A stretch of DNA of 64,000 nt, from NCBI RefSeq assembly GCF_001402875.1, contig NZ_CP012946.1, forward strand, positions 3,140,001-3,204,000, read 5' to 3'. Positions within the stretch are counted from its first letter, which is position 1. Each line of letters opens with the position of its first letter. A program made the position numbers and the translations under genes. The notes beneath the pieces are model-generated. The model saw only the letters and a list, made by a program, of their open reading frames with translations. It had not been told where the DNA came from and did no database searches. Below, in pieces: positions 27,632-57,556 of this stretch. Origin of the DNA: Blastochloris viridis. Its GTDB lineage: Bacteria; Pseudomonadota; Alphaproteobacteria; Rhizobiales; Xanthobacteraceae.

Positions 27632-27670
27632 CTCAAGCCAAAACGCCTCCGGCAAACCCGGGGCGGTTCA

Positions 27671-27780
27671 GTCGCCATGGCCCTGCGTTGGACGGCGGCC
27701 GCCATGATCGAAGCCGGCAAAGATTCAAGGCTTCCGGCGGCTCAACGCCCACACTCAAACGCGACTGTTCAGATTACCTG
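27671..27780 (+). pseudogene. IS256-family transposase C-terminal relic
   Basis: ALRWTAAAMIEAGK is the conserved C-terminal motif of IS256 transposases; with one frameshift the next codons read IQGFRRLNAHTQ, matching the GFRRLxAHKQL that follows in intact proteins. Only about 35 codons remain, directly abutting the IS3 right end. Confidence 0.6.
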
Positions 27781-28997: not shown

Positions 28998-29471
28998 ATG
29001 AACCTCGATCAACAGTCAGTCGGATTCCAGGCCACCCCGAGGCCGGCAGCGACCACCGACAGTGCGGCAGACTCGTCACCCGCTCATGTTGTGATCGTCG
29101 CAACGCTCCTGAACGCCACTGACGCGTCTCACTTCATTGACCTGAACGGCACGCGGTACGAGGTCGCCTCCGAGGACGTGATCGACATTCAGTTTCCCGC
29201 GCTGAGTTCCGCCCCCGCGCCCGCGGCGGAATCGTCCGATTCCACCAACGAGCAAGCACCTCCAAAGGAGGAGGCTGAAGGGCAACCGGCGCAGGAGGGG
29301 TCAGACAAGGATGAGCCGACGTCGGGTCCTCGGTTGGCGTTGGTGAAGATCAAGCCGACCGCAGTTCTCATCCAACATGTTCAGGTCCCTGCAATTCTGG
29401 TCGCCGCCGCCGGGACATGGCTCGCCATCGTTCCTAGCGACCAGGCGGCTGAGCAGACTGCGAGCACCTGA
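28998..29471 (+). CDS. Hypothetical acidic protein, first gene of the cluster
   Basis: Protein of 157 residues from the ATG at 28998 (MNLDQQSVGFQATPRPAATT); AAGGAG at 28986-28991 supports it. It has two ordered, beta-rich looking segments: SHFIDLNGTRYEVASEDVID (about residues 48-67) and RLALVKIKPTAVLIQHVQVP (about 112-135). They are joined by a Glu/Pro/Ser/Thr-rich linker, and a hydrophobic stretch ILVAAAGTWLAIVP lies near the end. No signal peptide. No family recognised. It is 169 bases upstream of the carrier protein and on the same strand, so probably part of the cluster. Confidence 0.6.
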   Translation: MNLDQQSVGFQATPRPAATTDSAADSSPAHVVIVATLLNATDASHFIDLNGTRYEVASEDVIDIQFPALSSAPAPAAESSDSTNEQAPPKEEAEGQPAQEGSDKDEPTSGPRLALVKIKPTAVLIQHVQVPAILVAAAGTWLAIVPSDQAAEQTAST

Positions 29472-29640
29472 GAAGCCGTCTCCGATAAGCCGAATTCCGC
29501 GCAGAGCGCTCACCAAAGAATGCTCCTGCGAACGGCTGGTCCCGTCAGCGGTGTCGACCGCCGAGATTTCGCGGCGTCCCGCAGCAGGACCTGGATGCGA
29601 ATTGTCGAGCGTGGCCGAGCAACCGCCCGGGGAATTTCCT

Positions 29641-29913
29641 ATGAGCATTCGCGACTCCATCGTCGTCTACATCGAAGAGATTTCATCCGAACGCGGCTTC
29701 GACCCTGCCAGCAACCTGTTTGAAAGCGGAGTCCTGACGTCGCTTGACGTCCTGTCGCTGGTCGCGTTCATCGAAGAGACGTTTGGCCTGGAAATCACCG
29801 GCGACGAGATTGACATGGCGAGTTTCGGCACGGTCGATGGTCTGGTGAACCTGGTCACGACGCTCCAGGCAAACGATGCGCAGAGCGCGGTTGCCGCGCG
29901 TTCACATGCGTGA
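29641..29913 (+). CDS. Free-standing acyl/peptidyl carrier protein
   Basis: Protein of 90 residues, MSIRDSIVVYIEEISSERGF. The phosphopantetheine site is in NLFESGVLTSLDVLSLVAFI, with Ser34 as the attachment residue in a T-S-L context, as in D-alanyl-carrier-protein-like and type II carrier proteins rather than the G-x-D-S-L of fatty-acid ACP. The rest is the expected four-helix acidic fold. Its last bases overlap the start of the ligase gene, which argues that the ligase charges this carrier. It probably holds the starter unit while the dehydrogenase or dehydratase acts on it. Confidence 0.88.
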   Translation: MSIRDSIVVYIEEISSERGFDPASNLFESGVLTSLDVLSLVAFIEETFGLEITGDEIDMASFGTVDGLVNLVTTLQANDAQSAVAARSHA

Positions 29914-31474
29914 CCGCACCGTGATGCTGCCTGTAAACGCCATGTTGCGCCGGAGTGCGCTCGACCTTCCGGACAAGGAGGCGATCGCTTGGCATGGCCA
30001 GCGCGTCACGTATGCGGAGCTGGACGAGGCGTCGAGCCGGATCGCCGCCTTCCTCCACCAGGCCGGCGTTGAGCGCGGCATGCGTGTTGCGATCTACTCG
30101 GCGAAGTGCATCGAGGAGGTCGCGGCGATCTTTGCCGTCATGAAGATCGGCGCGGTCCTGGTTCACATCAACCCGGCGTTTCGTGACGACAAGCTGAATC
30201 ACGTGCTGACGGAATGTGAGCCCGCCGCCCTCTTCTTTCATCCTAGCAAACACGTGATGCTCGAGCGCTCGGCCCGCGCCGCCGTGCTGCCGCCCCTGGT
30301 GATCCGGCTAAGCGCCGAAGGCGCCGTTGCCTCCGCCTTTCCGGACGCGAACCTCGTGCCGGCGATCGAACTCTCGCCGATCTTGCGCGGTCTCACCGCG
30401 GCCGGTGGGGTGTTTCCCGAAGGGTCGAACGCCGCGGACGACCTCGCCGCGATCATCTACACCTCGGGGACTACGGCGTCGGCAAAGGGCATCATGGTCA
30501 CCCATCAGATCCTGTCGGACGCAACGCTCGTCTCGGCACAGGTGCTTGGGAACGTGGCCGACGACCGCCTGATTAGCCTCACGCCGTTCTCGTTCGACGG
30601 CGCGCTTAGCCAGCTCTTCACCATGACGCTGGTCGGCGGAACGCTCGTTCTGCAGGATTCGCTGTTCCCGAAGGACGTCGTCGCGACCCTTGCCGCGGAG
30701 CGCATCACCGGCGCTCATGCGGTTCCCTCGTTCTGGCGGCTGATGCAGGAGCGCTACCCCGCCTTCGCGGACAGGGCGTTGCCGTGCCTGCGCTACCTGT
30801 CGCTGATCGGGGAGCACTTTTCCGAGCCCGACCTGCTGCGGCTCAAGCGCGCTCTGGCGTCGACGGATTTCTACATGATGTACGGAACGACCGAGGCGTT
30901 CCGATCGACCTGTCTCGCGCCGGAGGATTTCTTCACCAAGCTCGGCTCGGCCGGCAGGCCGCTGCCCGGGGTGACGATCACTGTCGTTGACGAGAACGGA
31001 CAGCCATGCCCCACCGGCACCGTCGGAGAGGTCGTGCATGCAGGCGCGTTCGTGTCGCCGGGGTACTGGAAGCGCCCGCACTCCGCGACCTTCCGGAACG
31101 GTCGCGTCCACACCGGCGACCTTGGCAGGCTCGACGCAGACGGCTGCCTCTATTTCGTCGGCCGGAAGGACACCATGGTCAAGCGATTCGGCTACCAGCT
31201 TTATCCGGAGGAGGTCGAGGCGTGCCTGCTCGCCCTCAACGGGGTTGCCCTGGCCGCCGTGGTCTGTGGCGCGGACTCCGGGGGTGGTCCTGCATTGCAG
31301 GCCTTCATCGTGTGCCGGCACGGCTCGACCCTCACCAAGTCGGCGGTGACGCAGCATTGTCGGCGCCATCTGCCTCACTACATGGTGCCGGACGACATCG
31401 CCTTCGTTGCCAGCCTGCCGACGACGGCCAACGGCAAGATCGACCGCGCCGGTCTGAGACTGGAGCAGGTGTGA
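29906..31474 (+). CDS. AMP-forming acyl/amino-acid ligase (ANL superfamily)
   Basis: Protein of 522 residues. Core motifs: A3 DLAAIIYTSGTTASAKGIMV, A5 FYMMYGTTEAFR, A7 VHTGDLGRL, A8 GRKDTMVKRFGYQLYPEEVE, and the catalytic Lys of A10 in TTANGKIDR. It has no fused carrier domain, so it activates a free acid and loads it on CoA or, more likely, on the carrier protein encoded just upstream. The start at 29906 overlaps the carrier gene by eight bases; ATG 29924 is an alternative. The substrate cannot be read; it may be a fatty or amino acid starter. Overlaps the next gene by one base. Confidence 0.87.
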   Translation: MRDRTVMLPVNAMLRRSALDLPDKEAIAWHGQRVTYAELDEASSRIAAFLHQAGVERGMRVAIYSAKCIEEVAAIFAVMKIGAVLVHINPAFRDDKLNHVLTECEPAALFFHPSKHVMLERSARAAVLPPLVIRLSAEGAVASAFPDANLVPAIELSPILRGLTAAGGVFPEGSNAADDLAAIIYTSGTTASAKGIMVTHQILSDATLVSAQVLGNVADDRLISLTPFSFDGALSQLFTMTLVGGTLVLQDSLFPKDVVATLAAERITGAHAVPSFWRLMQERYPAFADRALPCLRYLSLIGEHFSEPDLLRLKRALASTDFYMMYGTTEAFRSTCLAPEDFFTKLGSAGRPLPGVTITVVDENGQPCPTGTVGEVVHAGAFVSPGYWKRPHSATFRNGRVHTGDLGRLDADGCLYFVGRKDTMVKRFGYQLYPEEVEACLLALNGVALAAVVCGADSGGGPALQAFIVCRHGSTLTKSAVTQHCRRHLPHYMVPDDIAFVASLPTTANGKIDRAGLRLEQV

Positions 31475-32505
31475 TGCGGCGGTGCAGCGTTTGCGTCCTT
31501 CCCGAGAACTTCCCCGGCATCACCATCGACCAGGACGGCGTCTGCTCGCTGTGCCGAGACTTCACCGCCAGGCATCCACCGGCACCGTCCGCCCGCCTCA
31601 CGGATACGCTGTGGAGCCTCCTCGCAGACGCCAAAGCACGCAACCACCGTTATGACGCCGTCGTCGCGTTCAGCGGCGGCAAGGACAGCTCCTACTTGCT
31701 CCACCTACTGGCGTCGCGGTTCGGCCTCAGGCTGCTGGCGGTGACCTTCGACAACGGCTTCGTGTCGTCGGCCTGCTTCGCCAACATGCGCAACGTGGTG
31801 TCCGCCCTTGCCGTCGACCATATCGTCGTCCGGCACCGCCAGGATCATATGAACGCAATCTTCCTGGAGAGCGCGCTGTCGCGGGTCTTCCCGGACCATC
31901 TGACCAGGTTCGGCAGCGGCGTTTGTATCGCGTGCATCCGCATCGTTATCACCACGATGCTGCGCATCGCGATCGAAAAGAACGTGCCGATGGTCATGCT
32001 CGGCAATACGCCCGGCCAGGTGCTCACGTCGGACGAGGAGCTAATTTTCAAGGACAACGTCATCCCCCTGCCCCTGCGCCGGCAGTTGTTCGCGAGGCTA
32101 GCGGAGCGGACTGGGCCTTGGGCGTATGACTATCTGACGCTGTCGGCCGTTGAGTACAAGACGCGACCGTTTCCGTGGATCGTCAGTCCGCTGCCTATCG
32201 TCGGCTACGACGAGAATGAGATCTACCGCGTTCTCCCCGACCTCGGCTGGTCGAAGCCCACGGACGTCGATCCCAGCTCGACCAATTGCCGCCTGAACGC
32301 GTTCGGCATCATCCGGCACAAGAACCTGTACCGTTTCCATCCCTACGACTACGAGATGAGCCAGCTCGTCAGGCTCGGAGTACTGACCCGCGAGGCAGCG
32401 CTCGACAAGCTGAACGATCACGACGACACCGTCGTCGATGTCGCATCCGCAGTCGAACGAGACCTGATGTGCCGCTCCTGCAGTCGCTGCGGACCTGGAG
32501 CCTAG
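31474..32505 (+). CDS. PP-loop ATP pyrophosphatase (N-acetyl-sugar amidotransferase-like, alpha-ANH)
   Basis: Protein of 343 residues. The N-terminus has two CxxC pairs (RRCSVCVLPE, CSLCRDF), probably zinc-binding, and the C-terminus a third (LMCRSCSRCGPG). The PP-loop SGGKDSSYLLHLL (about residue 67) belongs to the N-type ATP pyrophosphatases, which adenylate a carbonyl and replace it with N or S. Closest general likeness is to WbpG/PseA proteins that make acetamidino groups with ammonia from a glutaminase; alpha-ANH proteins can also install thioamides. The next gene is a glutamine-dependent asparagine synthetase that could supply ammonia. The role in this pathway is inference. Confidence 0.75.
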   Translation: MRRCSVCVLPENFPGITIDQDGVCSLCRDFTARHPPAPSARLTDTLWSLLADAKARNHRYDAVVAFSGGKDSSYLLHLLASRFGLRLLAVTFDNGFVSSACFANMRNVVSALAVDHIVVRHRQDHMNAIFLESALSRVFPDHLTRFGSGVCIACIRIVITTMLRIAIEKNVPMVMLGNTPGQVLTSDEELIFKDNVIPLPLRRQLFARLAERTGPWAYDYLTLSAVEYKTRPFPWIVSPLPIVGYDENEIYRVLPDLGWSKPTDVDPSSTNCRLNAFGIIRHKNLYRFHPYDYEMSQLVRLGVLTREAALDKLNDHDDTVVDVASAVERDLMCRSCSRCGPGA

Positions 32506-32507
32506 CG

Positions 32508-34286
32508 ATGTGCGGCATCTGTGGCATCCTCGACATGCGCGACGCGCCGGTTTCGCCGGAGGCGCTGGCGGGAATGACGGCGCAGCTGTCCCACCGTGGT
32601 CCCGACGATGCCGGCGTCTACCTTGACGGCGCCGTCGGCTTCGGTCACCGGCGCCTGTCGGTTATTGATCTTTCCGGGGGACGTCAGCCGCTCCGAAACG
32701 AGGACGGCACCGTCTGGGTCACCTATAACGGAGAAATCTACAATTACCGCGGCCTGCGACCATCTTTGGAACGCAAGGGCCACCGCTTCGCCACCGATTG
32801 CGACACCGAGGTCATCGTCCACGCCTACGAGGAGGACGGGCTCGATTGCGTGTCGCAATTCAACGGCATGTTCGCGTTCGCGCTGTGGGACCGCACGAAG
32901 CGCCTGCTGGTACTGGCCCGCGATCGGTTGGGGATCAAGCCGCTCTACTATGGCGTCTTCGGCGGCGTTTTTCTATTCGCTTCAGAGATCAAAGCGATAC
33001 TGGCCCACCCGGCGGCCCGCTGTGAGATCGATCCCGACGGGGTCGCCGACTATCTGCTGTGCACGTCGCTGCTCGACAGCAGAACGATGTTCCGGGGAAT
33101 CCGCTCGCTTGTGCCTGGGGGCATCCTGGCGGTGCACGACGGCGAGCTGCGGCTTCACATCTATTGGTCGATGGCCCGCGCGGCGCTTCGCCATGCCGGC
33201 TCGTCGCTCGAAGAAAGCCGGGATGCGGTGCGCGGGCTGCTCAACTCGGCGGTCGCGGCGCAGGTGGTGAGTGACGTTCCGCTTGGCACGCTGTTGAGCG
33301 GCGGCCTCGATTCCAGCGTGGTCTCCGCGCTCGCCGCCGGCCATGTCGGCGGGCGCCTCAAGACATTCGCGATGGGCTACGACCATGGCGCCACGCTCCG
33401 GCCCGACGACATCGACGGCCGCTACGCCGAGCTGGTGGCGCGCGCCTATCACACCGAGCACACCGAGTTCGTGTTCCGGCCGGAGGACTACCGCGACGCC
33501 ATGAGCCGCGTCACCTGGCACGTCGAGAAGCCGGTCGACCTGACATCGCCCTCGCTGTTCCTACTCTATCGTGAGGTCAAGCCCAATGTGACCGTGGTGA
33601 TGTCGGGCGAAGGCGCCGACGAGCTGTTCGCCGGCTACTATTTCTTCCTCGATCGCTGCGGATCTGGCACACCGGCCGAGTTCCCGTGGGCGCCTTATCT
33701 CGACGAGGTCGGGGCGCTTCTTGATCCCGACTTCGTGGCACGAACGCGGTGCCGCGATCGTATCCGTGCAACGCTTTCGGCGGATATGGACAGCTTCCAG
33801 AGCGACGACCCGCTCAACAAGCTGCTCTACCTGTTCCTGAAATACTATCTGGTCGAGATGCTCGAACGTCTCGACAAGACCAGCATGGCGTGGGGCGTCG
33901 AATCGCGGGTCCCATTTCTGGACCACCATCTGGTCGAGTACGTCCTCAACCTGCCAGCGTGCTACAAGGCGAAGCCGGACATCAACAAGGTGGTGCTTCG
34001 TAGCGTCGCCGCCGACTTGCTACCCGCCGCCGTTGTCACGCGGCAAAAGCGGCCGGTTCCCATCCCGGTCGACCCCAAGTCGGTCTGGGCCGAGCGCAAT
34101 CGTGCCAACGCGCTGGTGCAGGCACACGACTCCCGCATCGCCGGCTATTTCGACAGGAAGAAGGTCGACGACTTTTTCCGGAAGAAGAACCAGTTCGCGG
34201 CAACCGACAACCTCGCCATCTTCAGGACCGCTCATGCTCTTGTCGCCCTCGACGCGTGGCACCAGGCATTCGGGGTGACGGCATGA
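32508..34286 (+). CDS. asnB: Glutamine-dependent asparagine synthetase
   Basis: Protein of 592 residues. Cys2 is the N-terminal nucleophile (MCGICGILD) of the class II glutaminase domain (about 1-190; SHRGPDDAG, RLSVIDLSGGRQP, YNGEIYNY). The synthetase domain has the PP-loop LLSGGLDSSVVSAL and the later GEGADELFAGY motif. The enzyme makes Asn from Asp, ATP and glutamine. Its presence in the operon fits the Asn predicted for NRPS3 module 1; it could equally feed ammonia to the adjacent PP-loop enzyme. Overlaps the next gene by four bases (ATGA). Family length is normal. Confidence 0.92.
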   Translation: MCGICGILDMRDAPVSPEALAGMTAQLSHRGPDDAGVYLDGAVGFGHRRLSVIDLSGGRQPLRNEDGTVWVTYNGEIYNYRGLRPSLERKGHRFATDCDTEVIVHAYEEDGLDCVSQFNGMFAFALWDRTKRLLVLARDRLGIKPLYYGVFGGVFLFASEIKAILAHPAARCEIDPDGVADYLLCTSLLDSRTMFRGIRSLVPGGILAVHDGELRLHIYWSMARAALRHAGSSLEESRDAVRGLLNSAVAAQVVSDVPLGTLLSGGLDSSVVSALAAGHVGGRLKTFAMGYDHGATLRPDDIDGRYAELVARAYHTEHTEFVFRPEDYRDAMSRVTWHVEKPVDLTSPSLFLLYREVKPNVTVVMSGEGADELFAGYYFFLDRCGSGTPAEFPWAPYLDEVGALLDPDFVARTRCRDRIRATLSADMDSFQSDDPLNKLLYLFLKYYLVEMLERLDKTSMAWGVESRVPFLDHHLVEYVLNLPACYKAKPDINKVVLRSVAADLLPAAVVTRQKRPVPIPVDPKSVWAERNRANALVQAHDSRIAGYFDRKKVDDFFRKKNQFAATDNLAIFRTAHALVALDAWHQAFGVTA

Positions 34287-35440
34287 GGAGCCCGGACACC
34301 GACCTTCTGATGAGCGCACAGACCTTCGTCCGGCAGGTTGTGGCACCGGTCGCGGCGGCCGCCGACGAACGGGAGGAGTTTCCCGTCGACGTCTTTCGGG
34401 CGGCCGGGCGGTTCGGCGTGTTCGGCGCCGGCTTTCCGAGCGAATATGGCGGTCTTGCGCTTGGCTGGGCTGTCTATACCGGGCTGATCCGGGAGATCGC
34501 CCAGGCCTGCGCCTCGACCGCGATGAGCGCCGTCGCACACGCCACGCTGGCGATGCTGCCAATTTTCCTTGGCGGGTCGGAGCGCCTCAAGCAGCGCCTG
34601 CTGCCGGCGCTGATCGGCGGCGAGGCCATCGCTGCCTTCGCCATGACCGAGGCGGGCAGCGGCTCCGACATCGCCGCGATCGCCACCACCGCGACCGATG
34701 CCGGCGAGCACTTTCTTCTCAACGGCTCGAAGGTCTTTATCACCAACGCCAATGTTGCCGATGTGGCCGTGGTCGTGGCCAAGACCGCGCCCGCAGCCGG
34801 CATCCTCGGACTGAGCTTGCTCGCAGTCGAGAGAGGCACCCCGGGATTCCAGGCGACGGGGCGGCGCGAGAGGAAGCTCGGCATGCGGGCCTCCGACACC
34901 GGTGAGCTTGTGTTCACGGACGCGCTGGTCCCCAAGGACAACCTAATCGGCCGCCGGAATGGTGGCTTTGCGATACTGCAGCGGACGTTGCCAGCCGCCC
35001 GCCTCGACATGGCGGCGATCGCGATCGGAATCTCCGAGCGAGCCCGCGACCTGTGCGTCGACCACGCGGTCGGCCGGCGGCAATTTGGTAAGCCGATCGG
35101 TCGCTTCCAGCTGGTGCAGCAGATGCTCGCAGACATGGAGACGAGCATCGACGCGGCGAGCCTGCTGCTCGCACGCGGCCTCGAGTTACGGGAGCGCGGG
35201 CTCCCGCTGGCCAAGGCTGCGTCGGAGGCCAAGTTGTTCGCCTCCGAAATGGCGGTCGAGATCACGCGCAATGCAATCCAGGTTCACGGGGCTTCCGGGT
35301 ACTCCAGGGATCTGCCGCTGGAGCGCCTGTATCGAGACGCCAAGCTCACGGAGATCGGCGACGGCACGTCGGAAATCCAACGTCTGATCATCGCCGACGA
35401 GATGATCAAGGAACGTCTGGCCCGGATTCCGGGTCGCTGA
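34283..35440 (+). CDS. Acyl-CoA/acyl-carrier dehydrogenase (FAD)
   Basis: Protein of 385 residues with the complete acyl-CoA dehydrogenase fold: FAD-contacting AFAMTEAGSGSDIAAI and FITNANVADV, then YSRDLPLERLYRDAKLTEIG near the C-terminus. In most members the catalytic base is the Glu of IGEGTSEIQR; here the codon is GAC and the motif reads IGDGTSEIQR, with Asp360. In NRPS clusters such flavoproteins often oxidise acyl or aminoacyl groups bound to a free carrier protein (for example prolyl carriers), and a free carrier is encoded in this operon. The start overlaps the asnB stop. Substrate unknown. Confidence 0.85.
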   Translation: MRSPDTDLLMSAQTFVRQVVAPVAAAADEREEFPVDVFRAAGRFGVFGAGFPSEYGGLALGWAVYTGLIREIAQACASTAMSAVAHATLAMLPIFLGGSERLKQRLLPALIGGEAIAAFAMTEAGSGSDIAAIATTATDAGEHFLLNGSKVFITNANVADVAVVVAKTAPAAGILGLSLLAVERGTPGFQATGRRERKLGMRASDTGELVFTDALVPKDNLIGRRNGGFAILQRTLPAARLDMAAIAIGISERARDLCVDHAVGRRQFGKPIGRFQLVQQMLADMETSIDAASLLLARGLELRERGLPLAKAASEAKLFASEMAVEITRNAIQVHGASGYSRDLPLERLYRDAKLTEIGDGTSEIQRLIIADEMIKERLARIPGR

Positions 35441-35452
35441 AGGGAGACGGGG

Positions 35453-50900: not shown

Positions 50901-51244
50901 CGGGCCGGGTTGCGGCGGACATGCTGCCGATGCCGCAACGTCCGCCGCTATCGGTGGCGGACGAGAACGCGGACCCAAGCCTGGTATTGGCCATCCGGGC
51001 GATGGTCGAGGAGTTTGTTGGCGTGCCGCCGATCGACGCCACGACCGACCTGCGCAGCGTCGGCATGACCTCCCTTGCGGCGGTGACGCTGCATGCCCGC
51101 GTTGCCGCCCGGTTCGGCGTCGCGCCGAACCTGTGCCAATGGCTGGACGCACCGTCCATCGCGAGCCTGTCCCACCATCTCTCGGAGGCGTTGCGCGGCG
51201 ATCGCCGGAACGTCCCGCTGACAGGGGAAACAACGCCGTCATGA
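41951..51244 (+). CDS. Non-ribosomal peptide synthetase, three modules (C-A-PCP)x3
   Basis: Protein of about 3097 residues (ATG 41951; a GTG three bases earlier is possible). Module 1: C HHIVCDG (His135), A motif YVIYTSGSTGAPKG (597), carrier Ser994, specificity residues D-L-T-K-I-G-E-V-G-K, matching the Asn code except for one conservative position. Module 2: C HHIVADG (His1175), A YVIYTSGTTGTPKG (1638), carrier Ser2016, code D-A-W-F-L-G-N-V-V-K, identical to the Leu code. Module 3: C HHLVSDG (His2196), but the A domain (about 2510-3000) is degenerate: from residue 2655 the A3 P-loop reads LAVVGAAADRDGARMN, A5 reads CFGLPEHIDV, A7 reads FRSGLRAR, and the A10 Lys is lost. Its carrier Ser (GMTSLAA, Ser3041) is kept. 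No thioesterase, reductase or epimerase domain follows. Confidence 0.93.
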   Translation: MASLVEPASFPASANQRRMYVLNRLSPDGVEYNVPVAIQLSGALSAARLQGALSALVARHSSLRTSFAIADGTIIQTVQAPMCVPLDFERARGKEGVEAIKRRFVRPFELDCPPLIRACLIRLNRLKHVLLLDLHHIVCDGVSIDILSEELSRLYDGDMLPPLPADYTDFALWQEKFAGSGQAEQQREYWLQLLDGERLALNLPTDFPRPAARSFDGDRVSARPNPQLAAALRALAARSRVSMYMLLLAAYYVVLAKYTGQDDIVVGTLAAGRNAEQFQGVVGLFVNTLALRSRPCGDLPFTDYLEQVRDECLMAFENQDCQFEDLVDRIAPPRDLGRSPLFDTMFTALSANSVRTVGGGIEFSRYELDYEIAKFDLTLTAIERQDGDLELEFEFCSDLFRRDTIERLSTHYLTALEVVATEPDIRLREIDVSSAEERRAAARGSPQATGTMQSVVELFERQARTIPAAAAISFGGETVDYATLDGRANAIAARLHATGVSRGSIVGLVALPSVEAIAAILGILKLGAAFLPIDPITPADRFRSIASASGMSVVLLPSAAHPFAGLGPAHLALDPAATEAHERLPKLAPISGGDLAYVIYTSGSTGAPKGVMISHRALSNYVTWAVRTYAGDTPTAFALHSPLSVDLTITSVFAPLVSGNRIVVYRNDDAMALMRDILRDDQVEALKLTPTHLALLAEALRDGAPANTRLRTLIVGGEDFKTGLAAKVHAGLGGRVGLYNEYGPTEATVGCMIYKFDPMVDTASSVPIGRAIDNAAVFVLDRYGLPAPRGAIGELHIAGACLADGYLNNPDMTAERFVVRRLGGREIRVYRTGDLARVLPSGDLDFLGRNDDQVKLRGFRIELGEIEAALLRDPEVTDAAVTRRVDPAGDPYLCAYVVATGAVEAADFRRRLGQYLPPHMVPSRVVAVDRLPIGRSGKVDRTALPDPGEPPGGSRSSATPRSAVELAIAAIWEQVLGVPRIGLDDDFFDLGGQSLKATLMIARVNRELRAGVALRDVFVHRTIRGLAGLVDGTREDPWAEIGQVGPREHHLVSAAQKRLFIVHQLAPRDVQYNVPFALNVAGPFDRQRWQHAFCALIARHESLRTSFVLVDDEIVQKTHADVDFTFEDRAPGAPVRLAQAAEGFVRPFDLGRAPLIRATILEVGPVEHTILIDVHHIVADGLSIEILVDDLRALYEGRTPEAPVVQYKDYAAWQRARSASADVRAQQAYWRAVFQGEVPVLALPTDFPRGPVRSFEGDLVRFTVNPALAERLRSVGRAAGATLFMTLLAAYTVLLSKYAGQDDIVVGIPVAGRRIAALQRVVGMFVNTLATRNRPRGELRFRDYLDTVKAHALDAYGNQEYQFEELVDTLEIERDLGRNPLFDTVFTTLDGGRTAFHADDVVVRVEEVPWKVAKFDLTLLAEERGDAIAFELEYCTGLFRRDTIERMARHFVHLLEQIASNPARKLRDLEPLTKDERRQILVEFNRSEASFPADQTVHGLIEEQADRTPDAPAVVYGAQTLTYGELNRHANQIARTLVGTGLAAEDVVGIVAEPSLEMMVGILAVLKAGGAFLPIDPDCPVDRARAMLADSQAKIVLFAGAEPWGETAPPTLDLRQPALYRGDDSNPGITTSSRSLAYVIYTSGTTGTPKGVMVEHAAVNNLCAWHIRTFALSSADRTTKYARFSFDASVWEILPSLQAGAALHIVPNEIRLDLARLARYFDDAGITVGFLPTQVCELFLQFDNRSLRLLLTGGDRLRRGGHGAYQLVNNYGPTESTVVATSGPVAADGPISIGKPIANTRVYLLDSADRLVPIGVPGELCIAGQGLARGYLGDPVRTAEKFVANPFEPGERLYRTGDVARWRPDGSLDYLGRTDSQVKIRGCRIEPREVEAAILAHDAVKDAVVVARENRNGDKQLYAYVVWRAATSLGDLKAHLGQRLPDFMRPTFFVTLDAIPLNARGKVDLAALPREDSDTAAAGEAPRTPAERRLVAIWRQVLDRARISIHDNFFAIGGDSLRATIMIAKANKALGTAVALGAVFDRPTIAALAVCFAAGLASETTTLVPAENRLHYATTPTQALLHAVCTARGGIEYNLPMAFQIGGGLDIARLERAFREVIDRHESLRTGFLAVDGRVVQYAVPNVGFAIERLSSCDEAEIGEVTRDFIRPFDLSLPPLIRAAVVPRGPGRHVLLIDMHHLVSDGTSMGLLLKEIAALYAGVQLPRPATTYKDFAEWLDGHLRSDRIRAHESYWRRILDAPPAPIRLDADFPREGRFAFAGSRINVTADAPLHGALRSLCAREDVTLYVLLLAAYNVLLSKYSGREDIVIGVPTVGRYLADVHDVVGMFVSTHVIRSRPRAERRFDEFLREVKAGVRGAVEHQEYQLWDLMVEHTVATGRPLFSAVFVVQDQAFTSIEIPGLEIEEIDPHYNIAKFDLTMGAVERPGRLDFELEYNTDLFRRSTATRIVGHYLRVLDQIVADPGRMLRQIEIVTPAEKDALLPAVRDEAPAGEDDASAVTVVTLFERQVRAAPDRIAVAHDGIAVSYRDLHRRAQQLGQRLAAEGAGPGTIVGLLVPPSVEMVSALLAIWATGAACVPLGTCDPPRRVAARLAETGVALLLCDRGAESNALPVPVVRLDDTIEADTAPLDRPADPDTLAVVGAAADRDGARMNVMIEHRSLLDRAHWFIDRFAVGETDQTVMYGDLTSGAALLTLVSTLCAGGAVWIAPDEARWCATTLLEGLRFRGVTVAWLPAALCERLAVATDLPLRTLITTGGAASPLRRSGYEFVTCFGLPEHIDVTTCTPVTAATAENLVGPPIADALAYIIGHDDSLLPVGVTGELCLGGSGLARGYLGDKGTTSRRFTPNPHVPGTRIFRSGLRARRLADGGIELMDRVDVHIDGCRVHLAEIECRLREHANITDAAVVHGHGDRRQPALCAFIVVKGALPGSAAALVRDLRRHLAEWLPAYMIPDAYVPVAALPRDETGRVAADMLPMPQRPPLSVADENADPSLVLAIRAMVEEFVGVPPIDATTDLRSVGMTSLAAVTLHARVAARFGVAPNLCQWLDAPSIASLSHHLSEALRGDRRNVPLTGETTPS

Positions 51245-52371
51245 CTCGACCGGTTTCGATCGACGCCGCGCTCCAGGATGTCCTGGACCTGGACCGCGAC
51301 CGCCTCGCGCTCCTGGCCGCGACCGACCAGCCGAAGGTCGGGTACGTGTCCATTCAGACCCCAGAAGAGATTCTGCTAGCGGCCGGCGCGATCCCGTTTC
51401 GCTTGACCGGCGAGTTTAGCGCCGACCCCGACGGCGCGATAACGTACCTCGGCGGCAACTACTGCTCTTACGTGCTGAGCTGCCTCGGAGAAGGGCTCGC
51501 TGGCGTCTACGGCTTCGCCGACGCAGTGGTGTTCGTCGACGCTTGCGACATGCGCAAGCGTCTATGGGAAACCTGGGCCCGGGCCGTTCCCGGCTGCGAG
51601 AGCTGGTTCGTGGAACTCCCCAGTGATGCGAGCCCGCTGTCCAAATCGTTCTTCGCCGGCCAACTCCGCAAGCTGATCCGCCGACTGGAGCAACGCTATG
51701 GCCGGGTGGTCGGCGAGGAAGCGCTTCGCGAGGCCATCGCGCGGTGCAACCGTACGCGCGAGCTGATGCAGCAGCTCCAGGATGGCAACCGGCGCGGCCG
51801 TCCGCTGCTGACGGGGCAGCAATCGATCGCTGTGGTAAAGGCTGCGACGACTGGGCTGAAGGACGAGTTTAATGGCCGCATGGCGGCGCTTCTCGACGCG
51901 ACCGCATCGCACGAGCCCCTAGCTGGGCGCCAGCGCCACCGCGTGATGATTTGCGGCAGCTATTTCGACCAGCCGGCGATCGTTGAGGTCATTGAGGCGA
52001 CCGGCGCCGACGTGGTCTGCTCCGACATCAGCAACGGGGTCAAATATTTCGAAGGCCGGATCGATCCCGACAACGAGCCGGTCGCGGCCATCGCCGACTA
52101 CTACCTCGAGAAGCACACAAGCGCGCGCCGTATCGATACCGACGTCCGGCTGCGCCACATGTTTGACCTGTTGCGAGACTATCGCGTGGATTCAGTTATC
52201 TACTTCGCTCTGAAGTTCTGTGACACCAACCTCCACGACTATCCCTACATCAAAGAGAAGCTGCGAGAGCGGAAAGTCCCCGTTCTGTTCATCGAAGGCG
52301 AGCACAACGGAACCAATATTGCCAGCATCAAAACACGCATCGAGACATTCCTGGAACCGCGGTTCTTCTGA
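51241..52371 (+). CDS. 2-hydroxyacyl-CoA dehydratase family subunit (HgdA/HgdB type), first
   Basis: Protein of 376 residues. The 2-hydroxyacyl-CoA dehydratase (D-component) fold is recognised from VGYVSIQTPEEILLAAGAIP at the N-terminus, the VVFVDACDMRKRLWETW segment and the C-terminal LKFCDTNLHDYPYIKEKLRE with the closing TRIETFLE. Candidate [4Fe-4S] ligands are Cys75 or Cys81, Cys102 and Cys327. These enzymes are radical dehydratases or, in the benzoyl-CoA reductase branch, reductases, driven by low-potential electrons from an ATP-hydrolysing activator. ATGA overlap with the last NRPS shows it belongs to the operon. Substrate (CoA ester or carrier-bound acyl) is unknown. Confidence 0.85.
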   Translation: MTRPVSIDAALQDVLDLDRDRLALLAATDQPKVGYVSIQTPEEILLAAGAIPFRLTGEFSADPDGAITYLGGNYCSYVLSCLGEGLAGVYGFADAVVFVDACDMRKRLWETWARAVPGCESWFVELPSDASPLSKSFFAGQLRKLIRRLEQRYGRVVGEEALREAIARCNRTRELMQQLQDGNRRGRPLLTGQQSIAVVKAATTGLKDEFNGRMAALLDATASHEPLAGRQRHRVMICGSYFDQPAIVEVIEATGADVVCSDISNGVKYFEGRIDPDNEPVAAIADYYLEKHTSARRIDTDVRLRHMFDLLRDYRVDSVIYFALKFCDTNLHDYPYIKEKLRERKVPVLFIEGEHNGTNIASIKTRIETFLEPRFF

Positions 52372-52380
52372 GGAGGCGAG

Positions 52381-53598
52381 ATGGACCGGGAGAGCATCGC
52401 GCAACAGCGCGCCACGCAATACGAGAACATGCTGCATCTGATCGGCCGCCAGCGGGCCCCGACAGAGGAGGCCGCATCGCTGCTCGCCACGACCCGGATG
52501 CGCTCCATCGTCAACTGCTACCGGATCGCCGAGGCCTACAAGGGTGGTTCGAAGGTTGCCTACGTGTCGGAGCAGTTCCCGACCGAGGTCGTGTTTGCCG
52601 CCGGCGCGCTGCCGTGGAATATCGAGTCGATGTCGAACATGCTCGCGCAGTCTCTCGACATCGACCACGTCTTCCGTCTTACCCAGGAGCGAGAGCTTTC
52701 CCGCGACATCTGCTCGTTCCTTCGCGGGCCATTCGGAATGATGCTCGCCGAGTGTTACCCGCGGCCTGACGTCGTGCTCACCAACGACCAGCCCTGCGAG
52801 GGGCTGCTCAAGACTATCTTCATGGCCGGCAAGCGCTACGGCACGCCGACCTTCGCGCTGCACACACCGAATCTGCTGGATAACGACGCGCTCGATTATC
52901 TCGTTCAGCAGATCGAGACAATGCTGACCCGGATCGCCGAGGTGTTTCAGGCCGAGCTCGATTCGGAGTGCCTGCGCAGCAGCGTACGGAACTCAAATCG
53001 CGCCCGTGTGTACTATCGCAAGGCGGCCCGGCTCCTGGAACGCCACGCCCTGCCCGGCGTGGCACGCGAGCTTCTGGAGATCTTCGGGATGAACTATTTC
53101 GGCGCCCCCGAAAACGTCGAGCTCTGCAAGTCCTTGTCCGAGGAGGCGGCGGTGCTGGCCGAGACCGGGGGGCCCAAGCGCCCGCGGGTGATGTGGATCG
53201 GCCAGACGCCGGGCGATACCGACGAGTTACTCCGACACTTGGACCAATCCGTCGACATTCTGTACTGGGCGGCACTGTGGGAAGCAAATTTGGCAGAGCT
53301 CGACGAGGAACAGCCGTTCCGGAGCATCGCCGAGCGGGCGATCCGTTACCATTGGAGCGCCGAGCGAATGGAACGCGACCTCGACCGCATTGCCGACACC
53401 TATGGGATCGAGGGGTTCATCATCGCCAACACCTGGGGGTGTCGAAACATGATGGCCATTGGTCCGGGGTTCCGATCCCTGGCAGCCCGCAAAGGGATCA
53501 AGCACCTGACCATCAGCATCGATCCCGTCGACCGGAACAACTACGTCTTCACCCATATCAAGAACCGCGTCGACGCATTTCTGGAGACATTGCGGTGA
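52381..53598 (+). CDS. 2-hydroxyacyl-CoA dehydratase family subunit (HgdA/HgdB type), second
   Basis: Protein of 405 residues beginning MDRESIAQQRATQYENMLHL, starting nine bases after the first subunit stop behind AGGAGGCG. Family hallmarks: VAYVSEQFPTEVVFAAGALP, RELSRDICSFLRGPFG, NDQPCEGLLKTIF and, near the end, GFIIANTWGCRNMMAIGPGF and the closing HIKNRVDAFLETLR. Cysteines in RDICSF, AECYPR, DQPCEG and TWGCRN are candidate cluster ligands. It should pair with the first subunit as a heterodimer. N-terminal homology between the two subunits is recognisable, as usual in the family. Confidence 0.85.
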   Translation: MDRESIAQQRATQYENMLHLIGRQRAPTEEAASLLATTRMRSIVNCYRIAEAYKGGSKVAYVSEQFPTEVVFAAGALPWNIESMSNMLAQSLDIDHVFRLTQERELSRDICSFLRGPFGMMLAECYPRPDVVLTNDQPCEGLLKTIFMAGKRYGTPTFALHTPNLLDNDALDYLVQQIETMLTRIAEVFQAELDSECLRSSVRNSNRARVYYRKAARLLERHALPGVARELLEIFGMNYFGAPENVELCKSLSEEAAVLAETGGPKRPRVMWIGQTPGDTDELLRHLDQSVDILYWAALWEANLAELDEEQPFRSIAERAIRYHWSAERMERDLDRIADTYGIEGFIIANTWGCRNMMAIGPGFRSLAARKGIKHLTISIDPVDRNNYVFTHIKNRVDAFLETLR

Positions 53599-53611
53599 GC
53601 GGAGAAGCGCG

Positions 53612-54382
53612 ATGATCACGCTCGGCATCGATATCGGCTCGCTGTCGACCAAGTCGGTCCTGATGGAGAACGACGAGGTGATGGCGTTCGACGTGGTCCT
53701 GACCGGAGGCACCAACCGGAAGGCGGCCGAAACCACTATCGAGAACGTGCTCGCCAAGTCCGGAGTGACGCGCGGCGACGTGAAATTCGTCGTCTCGACG
53801 GGCTACGGGCGGGAGAACCTGCCGTTCGCCGACAAGCACGTGTCGGAGATCACTTGTCACGGAATTGGCATGCATCTCAGGAACCCGGACATCCGAACCA
53901 TATTGGAGATCGGCGGCCAGGACAGCAAGGCCATCCGGATCGACGACAGCGGGCGGGTCGAGCAGTTCGCCATGAACGACAAATGCGCTGCCGGCTGCGG
54001 ACGCTTTCTCGAGGTCACCGCGCGCGCGATGGGCCTCGGTCTCGGCGAGCTTGGCGACGTATCGGCGCGCGCGAGCAATCCGCTGCGGATCAGCAGCACC
54101 TGCGCGGTGTTCGCCGAGACGGAAATCGTATCCCTCGTCGCCGTCGGAACGCCGATCCCAGACATCGTTCGCGCCGTACACGACTCGATCGCCCAGCGCG
54201 CGGTCGTGCTGCTTCGCCAGGTCGGAATCAGCGGGGCGGTCGGGATGAGCGGCGGCGTGGCACTCAACAGCGGCGTGGTCCGCGCCCTGGAAAGTAAGCT
54301 GCAGACGAACCTCTACATCGTTGACAACCCCCAGGTGCGGGGCGCGATCGGGGCCGCCTACATCGCCCAGCGGCTAGTTTAG
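53612..54382 (+). CDS. 2-hydroxyacyl-CoA dehydratase activator (HgdC/BadF-BadG-BcrA ATPase)
   Basis: Protein of 256 residues, MITLGIDIGSLSTKSVLMEN, with the ASKHA-fold phosphate motif at the start, EIGGQDSKAIRID in the middle and GMSGGVALNSGVVRALE near the end. Cys125 (NDKCAAGCGRFLE) and Cys164 (SSTCAVFAETEI) are 39 residues apart, the same spacing as the two cluster ligands of the Acidaminococcus HgdC (Cys127/Cys166), which bind the [4Fe-4S] cluster at the dimer interface. It hydrolyses ATP to inject one electron into the dehydratase. With the two subunits before it, this makes a complete and apparently functional system. Confidence 0.92.
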   Translation: MITLGIDIGSLSTKSVLMENDEVMAFDVVLTGGTNRKAAETTIENVLAKSGVTRGDVKFVVSTGYGRENLPFADKHVSEITCHGIGMHLRNPDIRTILEIGGQDSKAIRIDDSGRVEQFAMNDKCAAGCGRFLEVTARAMGLGLGELGDVSARASNPLRISSTCAVFAETEIVSLVAVGTPIPDIVRAVHDSIAQRAVVLLRQVGISGAVGMSGGVALNSGVVRALESKLQTNLYIVDNPQVRGAIGAAYIAQRLV

Positions 54383-54668
54383 AACATCTTGCTGCAAACG
54401 GGGGCGACGGCTTTGCGACGGAAGAGGCGGGAATGCGAAAACCGGAGTATCCGCTCGATGCCGCGAGATCGCCGGGTGCTCTTGAGCGCTGGCGGATGGG
54501 TTGGCGCGGAATGACGATTGAAAGAGAGGTCGGCGTCCTTCGGGCGCGACGCAACTCCAGCCACCGTTCGTGCGCGGTGATGTACGAGTCGACGCGCAAC
54601 GACCTAAGGACAGGGTTTCGCCGCGACGCTGCGCGGGGGCGAAGCGACCGCTTGCGCGGGGACCGACC
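54383..54668. other. Non-coding stretch between dehydratase activator and aminomutase genes
   Basis: Nearly 290 bases. On the minus strand the text resembles dispersed intergenic repeats of Bradyrhizobiaceae; a short Arg-rich frame on the plus strand looks accidental. The following gene may have its own promoter here. Confidence 0.4.
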
Positions 54669-56099
54669 ATGGCGACTGTGACGCTTCCCGGCTCGGCCGT
54701 TTCGACTCGCTATCATGCGATCGGCCGCTCAACCGTTTCCGGGATGCCGGAGTGGCAGAGGCTGGACTCGGACCTTCGCCACGGGATCGACATCGTCGCG
54801 CGGGTAATGCCGTTCCGCACCAACCGGTACGTGGTGGAGAACCTGATCGACTGGTCGCGGGTGCCAGGAGATCCGATCTTCCAGTTGGTGTTCCCGCAGC
54901 TCGGCATGCTGTCGAAGACCGATTTCGACGACGTGCGAACGCTGGTGGAGGCGGCCGCCGACGTCGAGTCGATCGGGCGTGCTGTCGAGCGGATTCGCCG
55001 CGGCCTTAACCCACATCCCGCGGGGCAGCTTACCCACAACACCGCGAAGATCGCTGGCCGGCCGCTCCCGGGCGTACAGCACAAGTACCGCGAGACTGTC
55101 GTGTTCTTTCCAGCTCAAGGGCAGACCTGCCACGCCTATTGCACCTATTGCTTCCGGTGGGCCCAATTCGTCGGCATGCCAGGAATGCGGATCGAAGCGA
55201 GGAGCACGGCCGACCTTGTCGCCTATCTCAAGGCGCACCCAGAGGTCACCGATATCCTGATCACCGGCGGCGATCCGATGATCATGGCGACCCGAACGCT
55301 TCGGCGCTATATCGAGCCACTACTCGCCCCCGAACTCGAGCACGTCCAGAACATTCGGATTGGCACCAAGTCACTCGCCTATTGGCCGCAACGCTTCGTG
55401 TCCGATGCCGACGCCGACGACTGCCTCAGGTTGTTCGGGGAGGTCGCCGCGGCGAACCGGCATCTCGCAATCATGGGACATTACACTCACCCGATCGAGC
55501 TTCAGCCTGCTCTCGCACGCGAGGCAATCCGGCGCATCCGCGACACCGGCGCCCAGGTGCGGATGCAGGCGCCGTTGATCCGTCACGTGAACGATGCTCC
55601 CGAAATATGGTCGGAGCTGTGGCGTACCGGCGTGCGGCTCGGGCTCGTCCCCTACTACATGTTCATCGAGCGCGACACCGGTCCCCACAGCTATTTCGCG
55701 GTGCCGCTCGTGCGCGCCCACGAGATCTTCCGCCGTGCCGCCGCGAGCGTCTCGGGCCTTGCGCGCTCCGCCCAAGGACCGACCATGTCCGCACTCCCCG
55801 GCAAGATCAGGATTCTGGGGGTCGTTACCCGCACCGAGCTGACCGATCGTCAAAGGACCGTGGCGTTTCGCAACGGCTCATCGTCCGCGGTCGATCCGCG
55901 CGAACAGCTGCTCGTCTGCGATTTCGTTCAGGCGAGGGATGCCAGCTTGATCCAGACGGTGTTCTTCGCTGCCTTCGACCCTGGCGCGACATGGCTCGAC
56001 CAAATGCGACCGGCATTCGGGCAGGAGCGGTTTTCGTTTGAGCAAGCTGGGGAGCGCACGGCGCCGCTTCACGCGTTCACCGAATGCCTGCTGGACTAA
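54669..56099 (+). CDS. Lysine 2,3-aminomutase family radical SAM enzyme (KamA-like)
   Basis: Protein of 476 residues. Radical SAM motif Cys154-x3-Cys158-x2-Cys161 (TCHAYCTYCFRWAQ), followed by VTDILITGGDPMIM and YIEPLLAPELEHVQNIRIGT, typical of the KamA family. Lys379 in LPGKIRIL aligns with the PLP-binding Lys of GGGGKIPL in lysine 2,3-aminomutase. The enzyme shifts an alpha-amino group to the beta position; lysine to beta-lysine is the archetype, but glutamate and others are known, so the substrate is open. The start at 54669 gives an N-terminus without Arg-rich junk from the longer frame. About 80 bases upstream of the aminotransferase gene. Confidence 0.85.
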   Translation: MATVTLPGSAVSTRYHAIGRSTVSGMPEWQRLDSDLRHGIDIVARVMPFRTNRYVVENLIDWSRVPGDPIFQLVFPQLGMLSKTDFDDVRTLVEAAADVESIGRAVERIRRGLNPHPAGQLTHNTAKIAGRPLPGVQHKYRETVVFFPAQGQTCHAYCTYCFRWAQFVGMPGMRIEARSTADLVAYLKAHPEVTDILITGGDPMIMATRTLRRYIEPLLAPELEHVQNIRIGTKSLAYWPQRFVSDADADDCLRLFGEVAAANRHLAIMGHYTHPIELQPALAREAIRRIRDTGAQVRMQAPLIRHVNDAPEIWSELWRTGVRLGLVPYYMFIERDTGPHSYFAVPLVRAHEIFRRAAASVSGLARSAQGPTMSALPGKIRILGVVTRTELTDRQRTVAFRNGSSSAVDPREQLLVCDFVQARDASLIQTVFFAAFDPGATWLDQMRPAFGQERFSFEQAGERTAPLHAFTECLLD

Positions 56100-56182
56100 G
56101 CCGCGCCGGCCTCGACGAGGTGATATTCGACGAGCCGTGTCAGGCCACGGCTTGATCCGGTCTTCGGCGAAGAGGGGTGATC

Positions 56183-57556
56183 ATGTCGACCGAATTCCCC
56201 GAAATCGGCGGGACCCAGGACGTGTTCTATGGCCGCCCGCCCGCCGTGCCGCTCCCGATGATGGCGCGTGCCGAGGGCATCCGGTTCTGGGACGAGGCCG
56301 GGAAAGAATACATCGACGCCTCGTCCGGTCCCATGGTGAGCGCGCTCGGACACTGCAATCCCAACGTCGTCGCCGCAATGTCGCGCCAGGCCCTGCGGCT
56401 CGATTACGCCTACCCCCAGATCGCGCGAAGCCGGAGCAACCTCGATTACGCCGCGCGCCTGAGCGCCATGGCCGGTCCCGGGTTCGAACGGGTCAACTTT
56501 GCCTCCGGCGGCAGCGAAGCGATCGACAATGCGCTGAAGTTTGCGCGCCAATATGCGCTTGCGACCAACCAGGCGTCGCGACGCCGTATCATCTCGCTCG
56601 ATCCTTCCTACCATGGGGCAACGATTGCTTCGCTGGCTGCCGGCGGCAACGACACGCTGCGACCATTTTTCGACGGATTCGCTGTGATGGCGCAAACGAT
56701 CCGGGCTCCCGTGACGTATCGGCTGAATCCGGGCGAGACCCCGGAATCAAGCGCCGCAGCCAGCGCCCGGGAGCTCGAGGACACGATCGTCGCGCTCGGT
56801 CCCGAGACCGTCCTGGCGTTCCTGATCGAGCCGGTGGGTGGTGTCTCGACGGGCGCAGTGGTGCCGCCGGCGGGCTTCTTCACCGCCATCCGCGACATCT
56901 GCACCCGTCACGGCGTGTTCCTGATCTTCGACGAGGCGATCTGCGGCGCCGGCCGGACCGGGACGTTCTTCGCTGCCCATCACTGGCCGGACGTCCGGCC
57001 GGACATCATCGTCCAGGCCAAAGGCCTGGGCGCCGGCTACGCGCCGCTGGCCGCGATGCTGGTGTCGGCAACCCACGCCGACACGCTGGCGCGCCTGACC
57101 GGCTTCAATTTCAGCTATTCCTACAATGCAAACCCGGTGTCGTGCGCAGTGGGACTCGCGGTCCTCGACGAATTCGACAGGCTCGACCTTTGCGCCAATG
57201 CCATCAGGCGAGGAGCAGAGCTGCGGACCGGTCTTGAGGCGCTAAAAGAGTCCTGCCCTCTGGTTGGCGATGTTCGTGGATTGGGCATGTTGCTCGCGGT
57301 CGAACTGGTCGCAGACAAGGCGACCAAGGCCCCCTTGCAGCAGGAGTTTCGGGCGCTTGACCGGCTGCGCCGCCACGCACTCGACCTCGGCCTCCTGATC
57401 TACGCCCGTGAGACGGCGGGCGGCCGGTTTGGGCAGTGGTTCATGGTTGCCCCGCCCCTCGTGGCGACCCATGAGGATACCGACCTCATCCTGGAACGGA
57501 TCGCGCGTTTGCTCGACAGGGTCGCCTCCGATGCAGTGGCCGCTCGGCTCCTTTAG
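56183..57556 (+). CDS. Class III PLP-dependent aminotransferase
   Basis: Protein of 457 residues. The fold type I class III signature is complete: SGGSEAIDNALKFARQY, HGATIASLAAGG, FLIEPVGG, FLIFDEAICGAGRTG, then VQAKGLGAGYAPLAAM with Lys280 as the PLP lysine. This class acts on omega- or beta-amino groups and on amino acid side chains. Directly after an aminomutase it could transaminate the beta-amino product, but that is inference. ATG 56183 is preferred to the GTG two codons earlier. Last gene of the rightward biosynthetic series. Confidence 0.9.
   Translation: MSTEFPEIGGTQDVFYGRPPAVPLPMMARAEGIRFWDEAGKEYIDASSGPMVSALGHCNPNVVAAMSRQALRLDYAYPQIARSRSNLDYAARLSAMAGPGFERVNFASGGSEAIDNALKFARQYALATNQASRRRIISLDPSYHGATIASLAAGGNDTLRPFFDGFAVMAQTIRAPVTYRLNPGETPESSAAASARELEDTIVALGPETVLAFLIEPVGGVSTGAVVPPAGFFTAIRDICTRHGVFLIFDEAICGAGRTGTFFAAHHWPDVRPDIIVQAKGLGAGYAPLAAMLVSATHADTLARLTGFNFSYSYNANPVSCAVGLAVLDEFDRLDLCANAIRRGAELRTGLEALKESCPLVGDVRGLGMLLAVELVADKATKAPLQQEFRALDRLRRHALDLGLLIYARETAGGRFGQWFMVAPPLVATHEDTDLILERIARLLDRVASDAVAARLL

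Follow-up and report, generated by a model that had tools for sequence, protein, structure and literature searches.

A conserved family of nonribosomal peptide pathways with a dedicated HGD-D radical enzyme, represented by a gene cluster of Blastochloris viridis

We analysed a stretch of 64,000 nucleotides of Blastochloris viridis DNA (contig NZ_CP012946.1, positions 3,140,001 to 3,204,000 of the forward strand; hereafter the window), which holds a nonribosomal peptide synthetase (NRPS) gene cluster together with genes for two HGD-D dehydratase-type subunits, HgdB and HgdA, and their activase HgdC (HgdBAC). The cluster represents a real and conserved family of NRPS pathways to which an HGD-D radical enzyme is dedicated. 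Judged by gene content, this family is scattered among bacteria and shares a core of starter genes, HgdBAC and one NRPS module, the later modules being variable. For the chemistry, we propose with a probability of roughly 0.43 that HgdBAC and an acyl-CoA-dehydrogenase homologue (ACAD) would act as a reductive Stickland pair on a carrier-bound, probably glutamate-derived starter, which would be supplied by a route of aminomutase, ligase, an asparagine synthetase-like enzyme (AsnB) and a PP-loop enzyme.

The genes of the cluster are given below with window coordinates; C, A and T denote condensation, adenylation and thiolation domains and TE a thioesterase. Domains were assigned by Pfam and NCBIfam scans, start codons were picked by us from the sequence, and the annotation covered mainly positions 18000-57600 of the window.

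28998..29471, + strand: orf0, 157 aa, separate small open reading frame upstream of the carrier gene
29641..29913, + strand: free acyl/aminoacyl carrier protein, 90 aa, motif LTSLDVL (PF00550)
29906..31474, + strand: stand-alone adenylation ligase, 522 aa, proposed starter loader (PF00501/PF13193)
31474..32505, + strand: PP-loop enzyme of the WbuX/N-acetyl sugar amidotransferase type, proposed to form an amidine or amide (TIGR03573 partial, below cutoff)
32508..34286, + strand: glutamine-dependent asparagine synthetase-like amidotransferase, AsnB (TIGR01536 above cutoff)
34283..35440, + strand: ACAD, proposed enoyl-thioester reductase (best NCBIfam model AcrC, below cutoff)
35453..38758, + strand: NRPS1, C-A-T, first module (Pfam scan)
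38755..41967, + strand: NRPS2, C-A-T (Pfam scan)
41948..51244, + strand: NRPS3, (C-A-T)x3, third A domain degenerate, no TE (Pfam scan)
51241..52371, + strand: HGD-D subunit, HgdB/BzdN-like (PF06050)
52381..53598, + strand: HGD-D subunit, HgdA-like, own clade (PF06050)
53612..54382, + strand: acyl-CoA dehydratase activase HgdC, ATP-dependent electron gate (TIGR00241 above cutoff)
about 54669..56099, + strand: KamA-type radical S-adenosylmethionine (SAM) enzyme, proposed 2,3-aminomutase (TIGR00238, below all cutoffs shown)
56183..57556, + strand: class III aminotransferase (PF00202)

Overlaps of 1-20 bases join the genes of carrier and ligase, ligase and PP-loop enzyme, AsnB and ACAD, NRPS1 and NRPS2, NRPS2 and NRPS3, and NRPS3 and HgdB (the last by 4 bases). 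The other junctions up to HgdC are short gaps (2 bases between the PP-loop and AsnB genes), and further 3' gaps of 286 and 83 bases precede the KamA-type and aminotransferase genes.

Scanning genomes with an HgdA alignment of 29 rows yielded 32 loci. HgdA identity was at least 38% in 18 of them (L010-L027) and at most 31% in the other 14. NRPS homology was found at 16 of the 18 loci; at the remaining two (L012 and L025), the contigs begin no more than 160 bases upstream of HgdA. Ten clusters were read whole: five that we call proteobacterial-type (the window, Rhodopseudomonas rhenobacensis, Bradyrhizobium jicamae, and metagenome-assembled genomes (MAGs) of Rhodospirillales and Syntrophobacterales) and five of Paenibacillus type (Paenibacillus tyrfis, P. 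tepidiphilus, and G1012, G1013 and G1080, genomes from the family of P. zanthoxyli). All ten contain the carrier, ligase, PP-loop enzyme, KamA-type enzyme, AsnB, ACAD, an NRPS1 homologue, HgdB, HgdA and HgdC. This core spans Alphaproteobacteria, a Syntrophobacterales MAG and Paenibacillus-type genomes, and the order of the starter-gene block is maintained in the other phyla. HgdC and a MATE gene precede HgdB-HgdA in G1012, G1013 and a partial P. zanthoxyli contig, and in the Rhodospirillales MAG the radical SAM and aminotransferase genes lie upstream on the opposite strand. HgdBAC and NRPS genes also occur together at each of eight further Paenibacillus loci (L015, L017-L020, L022, L023 and L027), which were read with no more than 10 kb of flanking sequence. 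Cultured hosts include R. rhenobacensis, B. jicamae and several Paenibacillus.

In a Spirochaetales MAG, one contig carries every core gene except HgdC; a further contig opens with another HgdA, after which comes HgdC. An apparent second HgdB/HgdA set in the same MAG follows a methyltransferase gene and is divided between two contigs (L021 and L025), the latter continuing with HgdC, a MATE transporter and an aminotransferase. Orthologues of the window's own aminotransferase occur in R. rhenobacensis (84% identity) and the Rhodospirillales MAG (62%) and were not found in the cluster regions of the Syntrophobacterales MAG and B. jicamae. In these two (L011 and L014) a class I methyltransferase, 52-59% identical to that of P. 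tyrfis, follows KamA in the position of the window's aminotransferase; the window itself has no match to a P. tyrfis-like class I methyltransferase. The small orf0 has counterparts at 27-50% identity in the other four proteobacterial-type clusters. It has no Pfam match, and its AlphaFold2 (AF2) model, with a mean pLDDT of 63.6 and a small beta-barrel part, gave no PDB fold match at E<=0.001.

Every element named in the original prediction, which was made from the letters of the window, is backed by the domain scans (29641-57556). Some of its details shift. The predicted KamA-like enzyme is indeed of the KamA type, as a remote member of the family that stays below all cutoffs shown. Of the five predicted NRPS modules, all appear in order as C-A-T units, with four expected to load an amino acid and a degenerate A domain in the fifth. 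The predicted left end at 28998 is the start of the separate orf0, the carrier gene starting at 29641, and orf0 does accompany all five proteobacterial-type clusters.

Most clusters were found via HgdA, and for the reverse search the PP-loop protein of P. tyrfis served as the query. In the family of P. tyrfis it matched 9 of 104 genomes, the same nine as HgdA. The family of P. zanthoxyli was searched with the PP-loop protein, and HgdA presence was read in the PP-loop-positive genomes only; the query matched 5 of 394 genomes, all carrying HgdA (three read with HgdBAC nearby, with G008 and G009 matching HgdA). Over both families HgdA is present in 14/14 PP-loop-carrying genomes and on the same contig in 12 of them, the two matches lying on different contigs in G812 and G008. 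Matching the lengths of contigs with HgdA to those with a PP-loop match paired 13 of 27 contigs longer than 20 kb, a weak and incomplete count drawn from clustered lists, with the best 120 of 158 PP-loop matches and 71 of the best 120 KamA matches. KamA was dropped as a cluster marker, as the same family stands alone elsewhere.

Because the core is present in 10/10 whole clusters and HgdA in 14/14 PP-loop-carrying genomes, we conclude that HgdABC belongs to the pathway, in agreement with the original prediction; none of the ten whole clusters lacks the dehydratase genes. A chance neighbourhood is ruled out by the reverse search and by the block order in other phyla. The Spirochaetales cluster holds the dehydratase set with only one complete NRPS module, and the set probably acts at the starter end of the pathway.

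By their sequences HgdB and HgdA form a clade of their own, and family names do not reveal its reaction, since their scores lie far under all named equivalog cutoffs. This applies to the 2-hydroxyacyl-CoA dehydratase models (HadC, 123 of 700 bits; HadB, 26.3 of 750) as well as to those of class I benzoyl-CoA reductases (BzdN, 144.3 of 453.8; BcrC, 102.7 of 421.15; BcrB, 25.2 of 486.55). Both subunits carry three cysteines each for a [4Fe-4S] cluster, a ligand role that we assume for them. In HgdA these are C111, C139 and C354, kept in 29/29 alignment rows and 13/13 cluster rows; the three motifs of HgdB occur in 11/11 clusters, and HgdB can be aligned from end to end with BzdN and HadC, its cysteines matching theirs. 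C125 and C164 of HgdC, presumably the ligands of the bridging cluster of an activase, are kept in 12/12 rows. Two HGD-D subunits with three aligned cysteines each, a two-cysteine activase and an ACAD partner liken the set to HgdABC, HadABC and LcdABC. Unlike these systems, it is encoded in an NRPS operon that includes a free carrier protein, and no 2-hydroxyacid-forming or CoA-transferase gene is among the assigned window genes. Elsewhere in the B. viridis genome (C1:2280001-2300000), two tandem HGD-D/activase sets lie beside a type 2A encapsulin shell gene (SrpI-like) and adjoin the gene of a protein from the class V aminotransferase family that may be a cysteine desulfurase.

The ACAD is best matched among NCBIfam models by the acryloyl-CoA reductase AcrC (350.6 of 640 bits) and among PDB entries by chain C of 5ol2 (best 60 of 122 matches), a structure that also contains an electron-transferring flavoprotein (Etf). 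The motif IGDGTSEIQ is present in the ACAD of 11/11 clusters. EtfB and EtfA genes stand at the start of all five whole Paenibacillus-type clusters. EtfA of P. tyrfis, which has two Fer4 stretches, finds its best match in CarE from the caffeyl-CoA reductase complex (6fah), followed by LctC, and this CarE-like Etf likens these clusters to the AcdB-Etf, AcrCAB and CarCDE systems.

The starter genes are as uniform as the dehydratase genes. The LTSLD motif of the carrier is found in 11/11 clusters. The ligase has TIGR03098 as its best NCBIfam model, below cutoff, and its pocket motifs SFDGALSQ and MYG.TEAFRST are identical in 11/11 clusters; because of this identity, the sequences argue for a single starter acid common to all 11. 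By what we take to be the PheA numbering, pocket positions 235 and 330 are Asp and Arg, respectively.

The radical SAM enzymes are of two types, one in the proteobacterial-type clusters (45-84% identity to that of the window) and another in the Paenibacillus-type and Spirochaetales clusters, where the three enzymes measured are 614-621 aa long. The window enzyme has CxxxCxxC and a conserved GK close to the expected lysine for pyridoxal phosphate (PLP), and lysine 2,3-aminomutase (LAM; 2a5h) is its only PDB match. Against the glutamate 2,3-aminomutase (EAM) model TIGR04368 it scores 83.5 and the P. tyrfis enzyme 201.7, neither reaching the cutoff of 650; for the second type, as read in P. tyrfis, this is the best specific model. 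At the positions that we take to be Asp293 and Asp330 of LAM, the second type has Lys and Asn in 6/6 sequences, presumably the residues of EAM. In a MAFFT alignment of the window type, Arg pairs with the Paenibacillus Lys and Ser occupies the second position, and the motif is identical in 5/5 proteobacterial-type clusters. These enzymes share with EAM and LAM the CxxxCxxC and PLP-lysine region, the Paenibacillus type adding Lys and Asn at the side-chain positions; unlike EAM and LAM, the window type is remote, ambiguous at the first of these positions and below all equivalog cutoffs. These residues lend weak support to a substrate with a side-chain carboxylate.

AsnB has MCGICG and SGGLDSS in 11/11 clusters. 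The PP-loop enzyme has SGGKDS in 11/11, reaches 118.8 of 203.2 bits against TIGR03573 (WbuX) over its N-terminal half only, and weakly matches PDB entry 8wex. It resembles WbuX and WbpG, which act on acetamidino sugars, in SGGKDS, in its N-terminal Cys pairs and in having an AsnB neighbour, as does the AsnB-WbuX pair of an Azospirillum sugar locus; unlike them, it lies in an NRPS cluster. We infer that AsnB and the PP-loop enzyme may form an amide or amidine. WbuX-like PP-loop domains (about 30% identity) were also seen inside NRPS proteins on plasmids of Streptomyces sp. NBC_01216 (L086) and Roseovarius pelagicus (L087), the former near asnB and a tyrosine 2,3-aminomutase gene.

For the peptide itself, the A-domain codes, read by alignment, are DVANFALIY for NRPS1, DAFFIGAAY for NRPS2, and DLTKIGEVG and DAWFLGNVV for the first two A domains of NRPS3. 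We take these to be Gly/Ala-like (weakly), Val/Ile-like, Asn-like and Leu-like, respectively; the nearest PDB structure to the NRPS1 domain is the second A domain of LgrA, presumably a Gly domain. The fifth A domain, read by eye, is without the ATP-binding motif A3 and without the Lys of A10 in 5/5 proteobacterial-type clusters, and four modules are therefore predicted to load an amino acid; the T domain of the fifth retains its Ser. The domain scan found no TE in NRPS3, and the P. tyrfis TE has no match anywhere in the window. A separate TE is present in P. tyrfis and P. tepidiphilus and, by homology, in the other Paenibacillus-type clusters. The modules of these clusters vary in both number and code, and the Spirochaetales NRPS1 protein has one complete C-A-T module and a second Condensation stretch. 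On this comparison of sequences, what is common to all clusters is the starter and the first residue.

Put together, the genes suggest the following route. The radical SAM aminomutase would make a beta-amino dicarboxylic acid, with beta-glutamate as the likeliest candidate; the ligase would load this or a related acid onto the carrier, and AsnB and the PP-loop enzyme would convert the free carboxylate of the starter to an amide or amidine. HgdC would drive single electrons into HgdBA by ATP hydrolysis. HgdBA would then form a ketyl radical at the thioester carbonyl and expel the alpha-substituent to give an enoyl thioester, which ACAD and Etf would reduce as in HadABC-AcdB or lactyl-CoA dehydratase-AcrCAB, here on a carrier protein. 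Module 1 would accept the starter, and in the window the chain would grow by about Gly/Ala, Val/Ile, Asn and Leu.

In amino-acid fermentation the dehydratase and the enoyl reductase act one after the other, and the activase can draw on ferredoxin that a bifurcating Etf has reduced; it is because of this arrangement that we favour the reductive-pair model. The CarE/AcrA-like Etf genes of the Paenibacillus-type clusters fit a pathway in which an enoyl thioester arises and is then reduced. It is possible, at somewhat less than even odds, that a ketyl-radical HGD-D enzyme was recruited to an NRPS line to act on a carrier-bound acyl group, in its boldest form with expulsion of an alpha-amino rather than an alpha-hydroxy group, a form proposed because no hydroxy-acid gene was found. 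If the enzyme does act on a carrier-bound acyl group, a bifurcating Etf may feed both the HGD-D enzyme and the enoyl reductase in the Paenibacillus-type clusters.

Several observations weigh against the reductive-pair model. No assigned gene would make an alpha-hydroxy acid or a 2-hydroxyacyl group. The Asp of the ACAD motif stands at what we take to be the position of the catalytic Glu of medium-chain acyl-CoA dehydrogenase, and the direction of the ACAD reaction is therefore not certain; the five proteobacterial-type clusters and the Spirochaetales contigs have no match to the P. tyrfis Etf. The identity of the starter rests on a few pocket residues and assumed numbering. For the window-type radical SAM enzyme, a HMMER alignment opens a gap and places Glu on LAM Asp293, in conflict with MAFFT, and four relatives at about 50% identity (L069-L072) stand alone, with no other cluster genes in the 18-19 kb read around them. 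The AF2 model of the PP-loop enzyme is poor (mean pLDDT 50.4), and AsnB could serve merely as its glutaminase partner. In the model the peptide would have to be released without a TE, past a last module unable to load itself. Four source genomes of the 18 loci are MAGs, with possible binning errors. Finally, the best PDB match of HgdB is BzdN (8s02_B, 140.9 bits), ahead of HadC (3o3m_B, 98.2) and MbdN (98.0).

This last point is also where the strongest competing explanation begins, that HgdBAC is an ATP-dependent reductase akin to benzoyl-CoA reductase, with ACAD oxidising a ring or conjugated acyl group bound to the carrier or a peptidyl carrier protein and HgdBAC reducing it by one-electron steps. 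HgdB has BzdN as its closest relative in the PDB, its top NCBIfam models being the double-cubane reductase (173.6 bits) and BzdN, ahead of HadC, and the ACAD also matches prolyl-carrier dehydrogenases. All these NCBIfam matches, however, are far below their cutoffs, and the best PDB profile matches of HgdA are distant and nearly tied between the two camps (MbdO 53.8, HadB 50.3 bits). Unlike BzdNO and MbdNO, the window set has a single activase gene and no aromatic degradation gene among the assigned genes, which also include none for an aromatic starter, and the CarE-like Etf beside the Paenibacillus-type ACAD favours ACAD as the reductase. We consider this alternative unlikely.

Much less probable is that the substrate of the dehydratase is a hydroxy fatty acid or another acyl chain, from which a lipopeptide starter would be made. 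A ligase and a free carrier do precede an NRPS that starts with a C domain, and the ligase matches fatty-acid CoA ligase models, below cutoff. Its pocket, however, retains the Asp of amino-acid-activating domains together with an Arg, presumably the pair expected for amino or dicarboxylic acids and not for fatty acids, and a 2,3-aminomutase-like enzyme and AsnB belong to the core. The original prediction had the dehydratase make or reduce an unsaturated unit for a lipopeptide or modified peptide starter. A role at the starter end is likely, and the Etf genes fit an enoyl group being formed and reduced; the lipopeptide is not borne out.

The cluster lies between two equally oriented insertion sequence (IS) copies, which differ at 3 of 1326 bp and which we take to be of the IS3 type:

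26350..27675, + strand: IS3-type element, left copy (rve and HTH_21)
60931..62256, + strand: IS3-type element, right copy, repeat of the left

A composite transposon was considered and rejected, as no target-site duplication was seen. A tRNA-Ser gene (18077-18166) and a TraD-domain protein (22962-24119) upstream of the cluster hint at an integrated island; on the + strand of the window, the terminal 16 to 40 bases of the tRNA gene are not repeated exactly anywhere else. Least probable of all is that HgdBAC merely travels beside the NRPS genes on such an island and has a CoA-related role of its own: the flanking IS copies, the tRNA-Ser and TraD-like genes and the two other HGD-D pairs of the same genome would suit it, but HgdA accompanies the PP-loop gene in every carrying genome of two families, the gene content is common to distant phyla, and HgdB overlaps NRPS3.

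The window also contains a 597-base inverted repeat (99%; 20371-20967 against 60334-60930). One arm takes in part of a DDE transposase gene (19836-20894), and the other, an incomplete copy, directly borders the right IS element. A protein with DUF4062 and SIR2-like domains is encoded at 24626-25954, with weak matches to ThsA/SIR2 defence models, and a ParD-type antitoxin gene (59160-59660) lies between the cluster and the right IS copy.

In the family of B. viridis, 17 of 198 genomes have some match to the HgdA profile. The cluster is patchy, because only 2 of the 198, including the window's genome, match strongly; in two more genomes of its genus the matches are no more than weak and partial. 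A search for plasmid relatives of HgdA gave no match. The pathway family has probably moved horizontally.

HGD-D radical enzymes are oxygen-sensitive and known from anaerobic fermentation. The B. viridis genome has photosynthetic reaction-centre genes, and anoxic growth of this host is therefore likely. Among open-licence PubMed Central papers, a partial view of the literature, we found no described case of an NRPS paired with an HGD-D dehydratase, and we know of no other NRPS pathway that removes a substituent next to a thioester by such radical chemistry. The family points to undescribed chemistry for building the first unit of a peptide. If the proposed reading is true, radical chemistry of amino-acid fermentation would have been transferred into natural-product assembly, and such clusters may need anoxic growth for expression or activity. 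With a family that crosses phyla, cultured hosts and, in the smallest form seen, one complete NRPS module, isolation of the product and in vitro work would be feasible.

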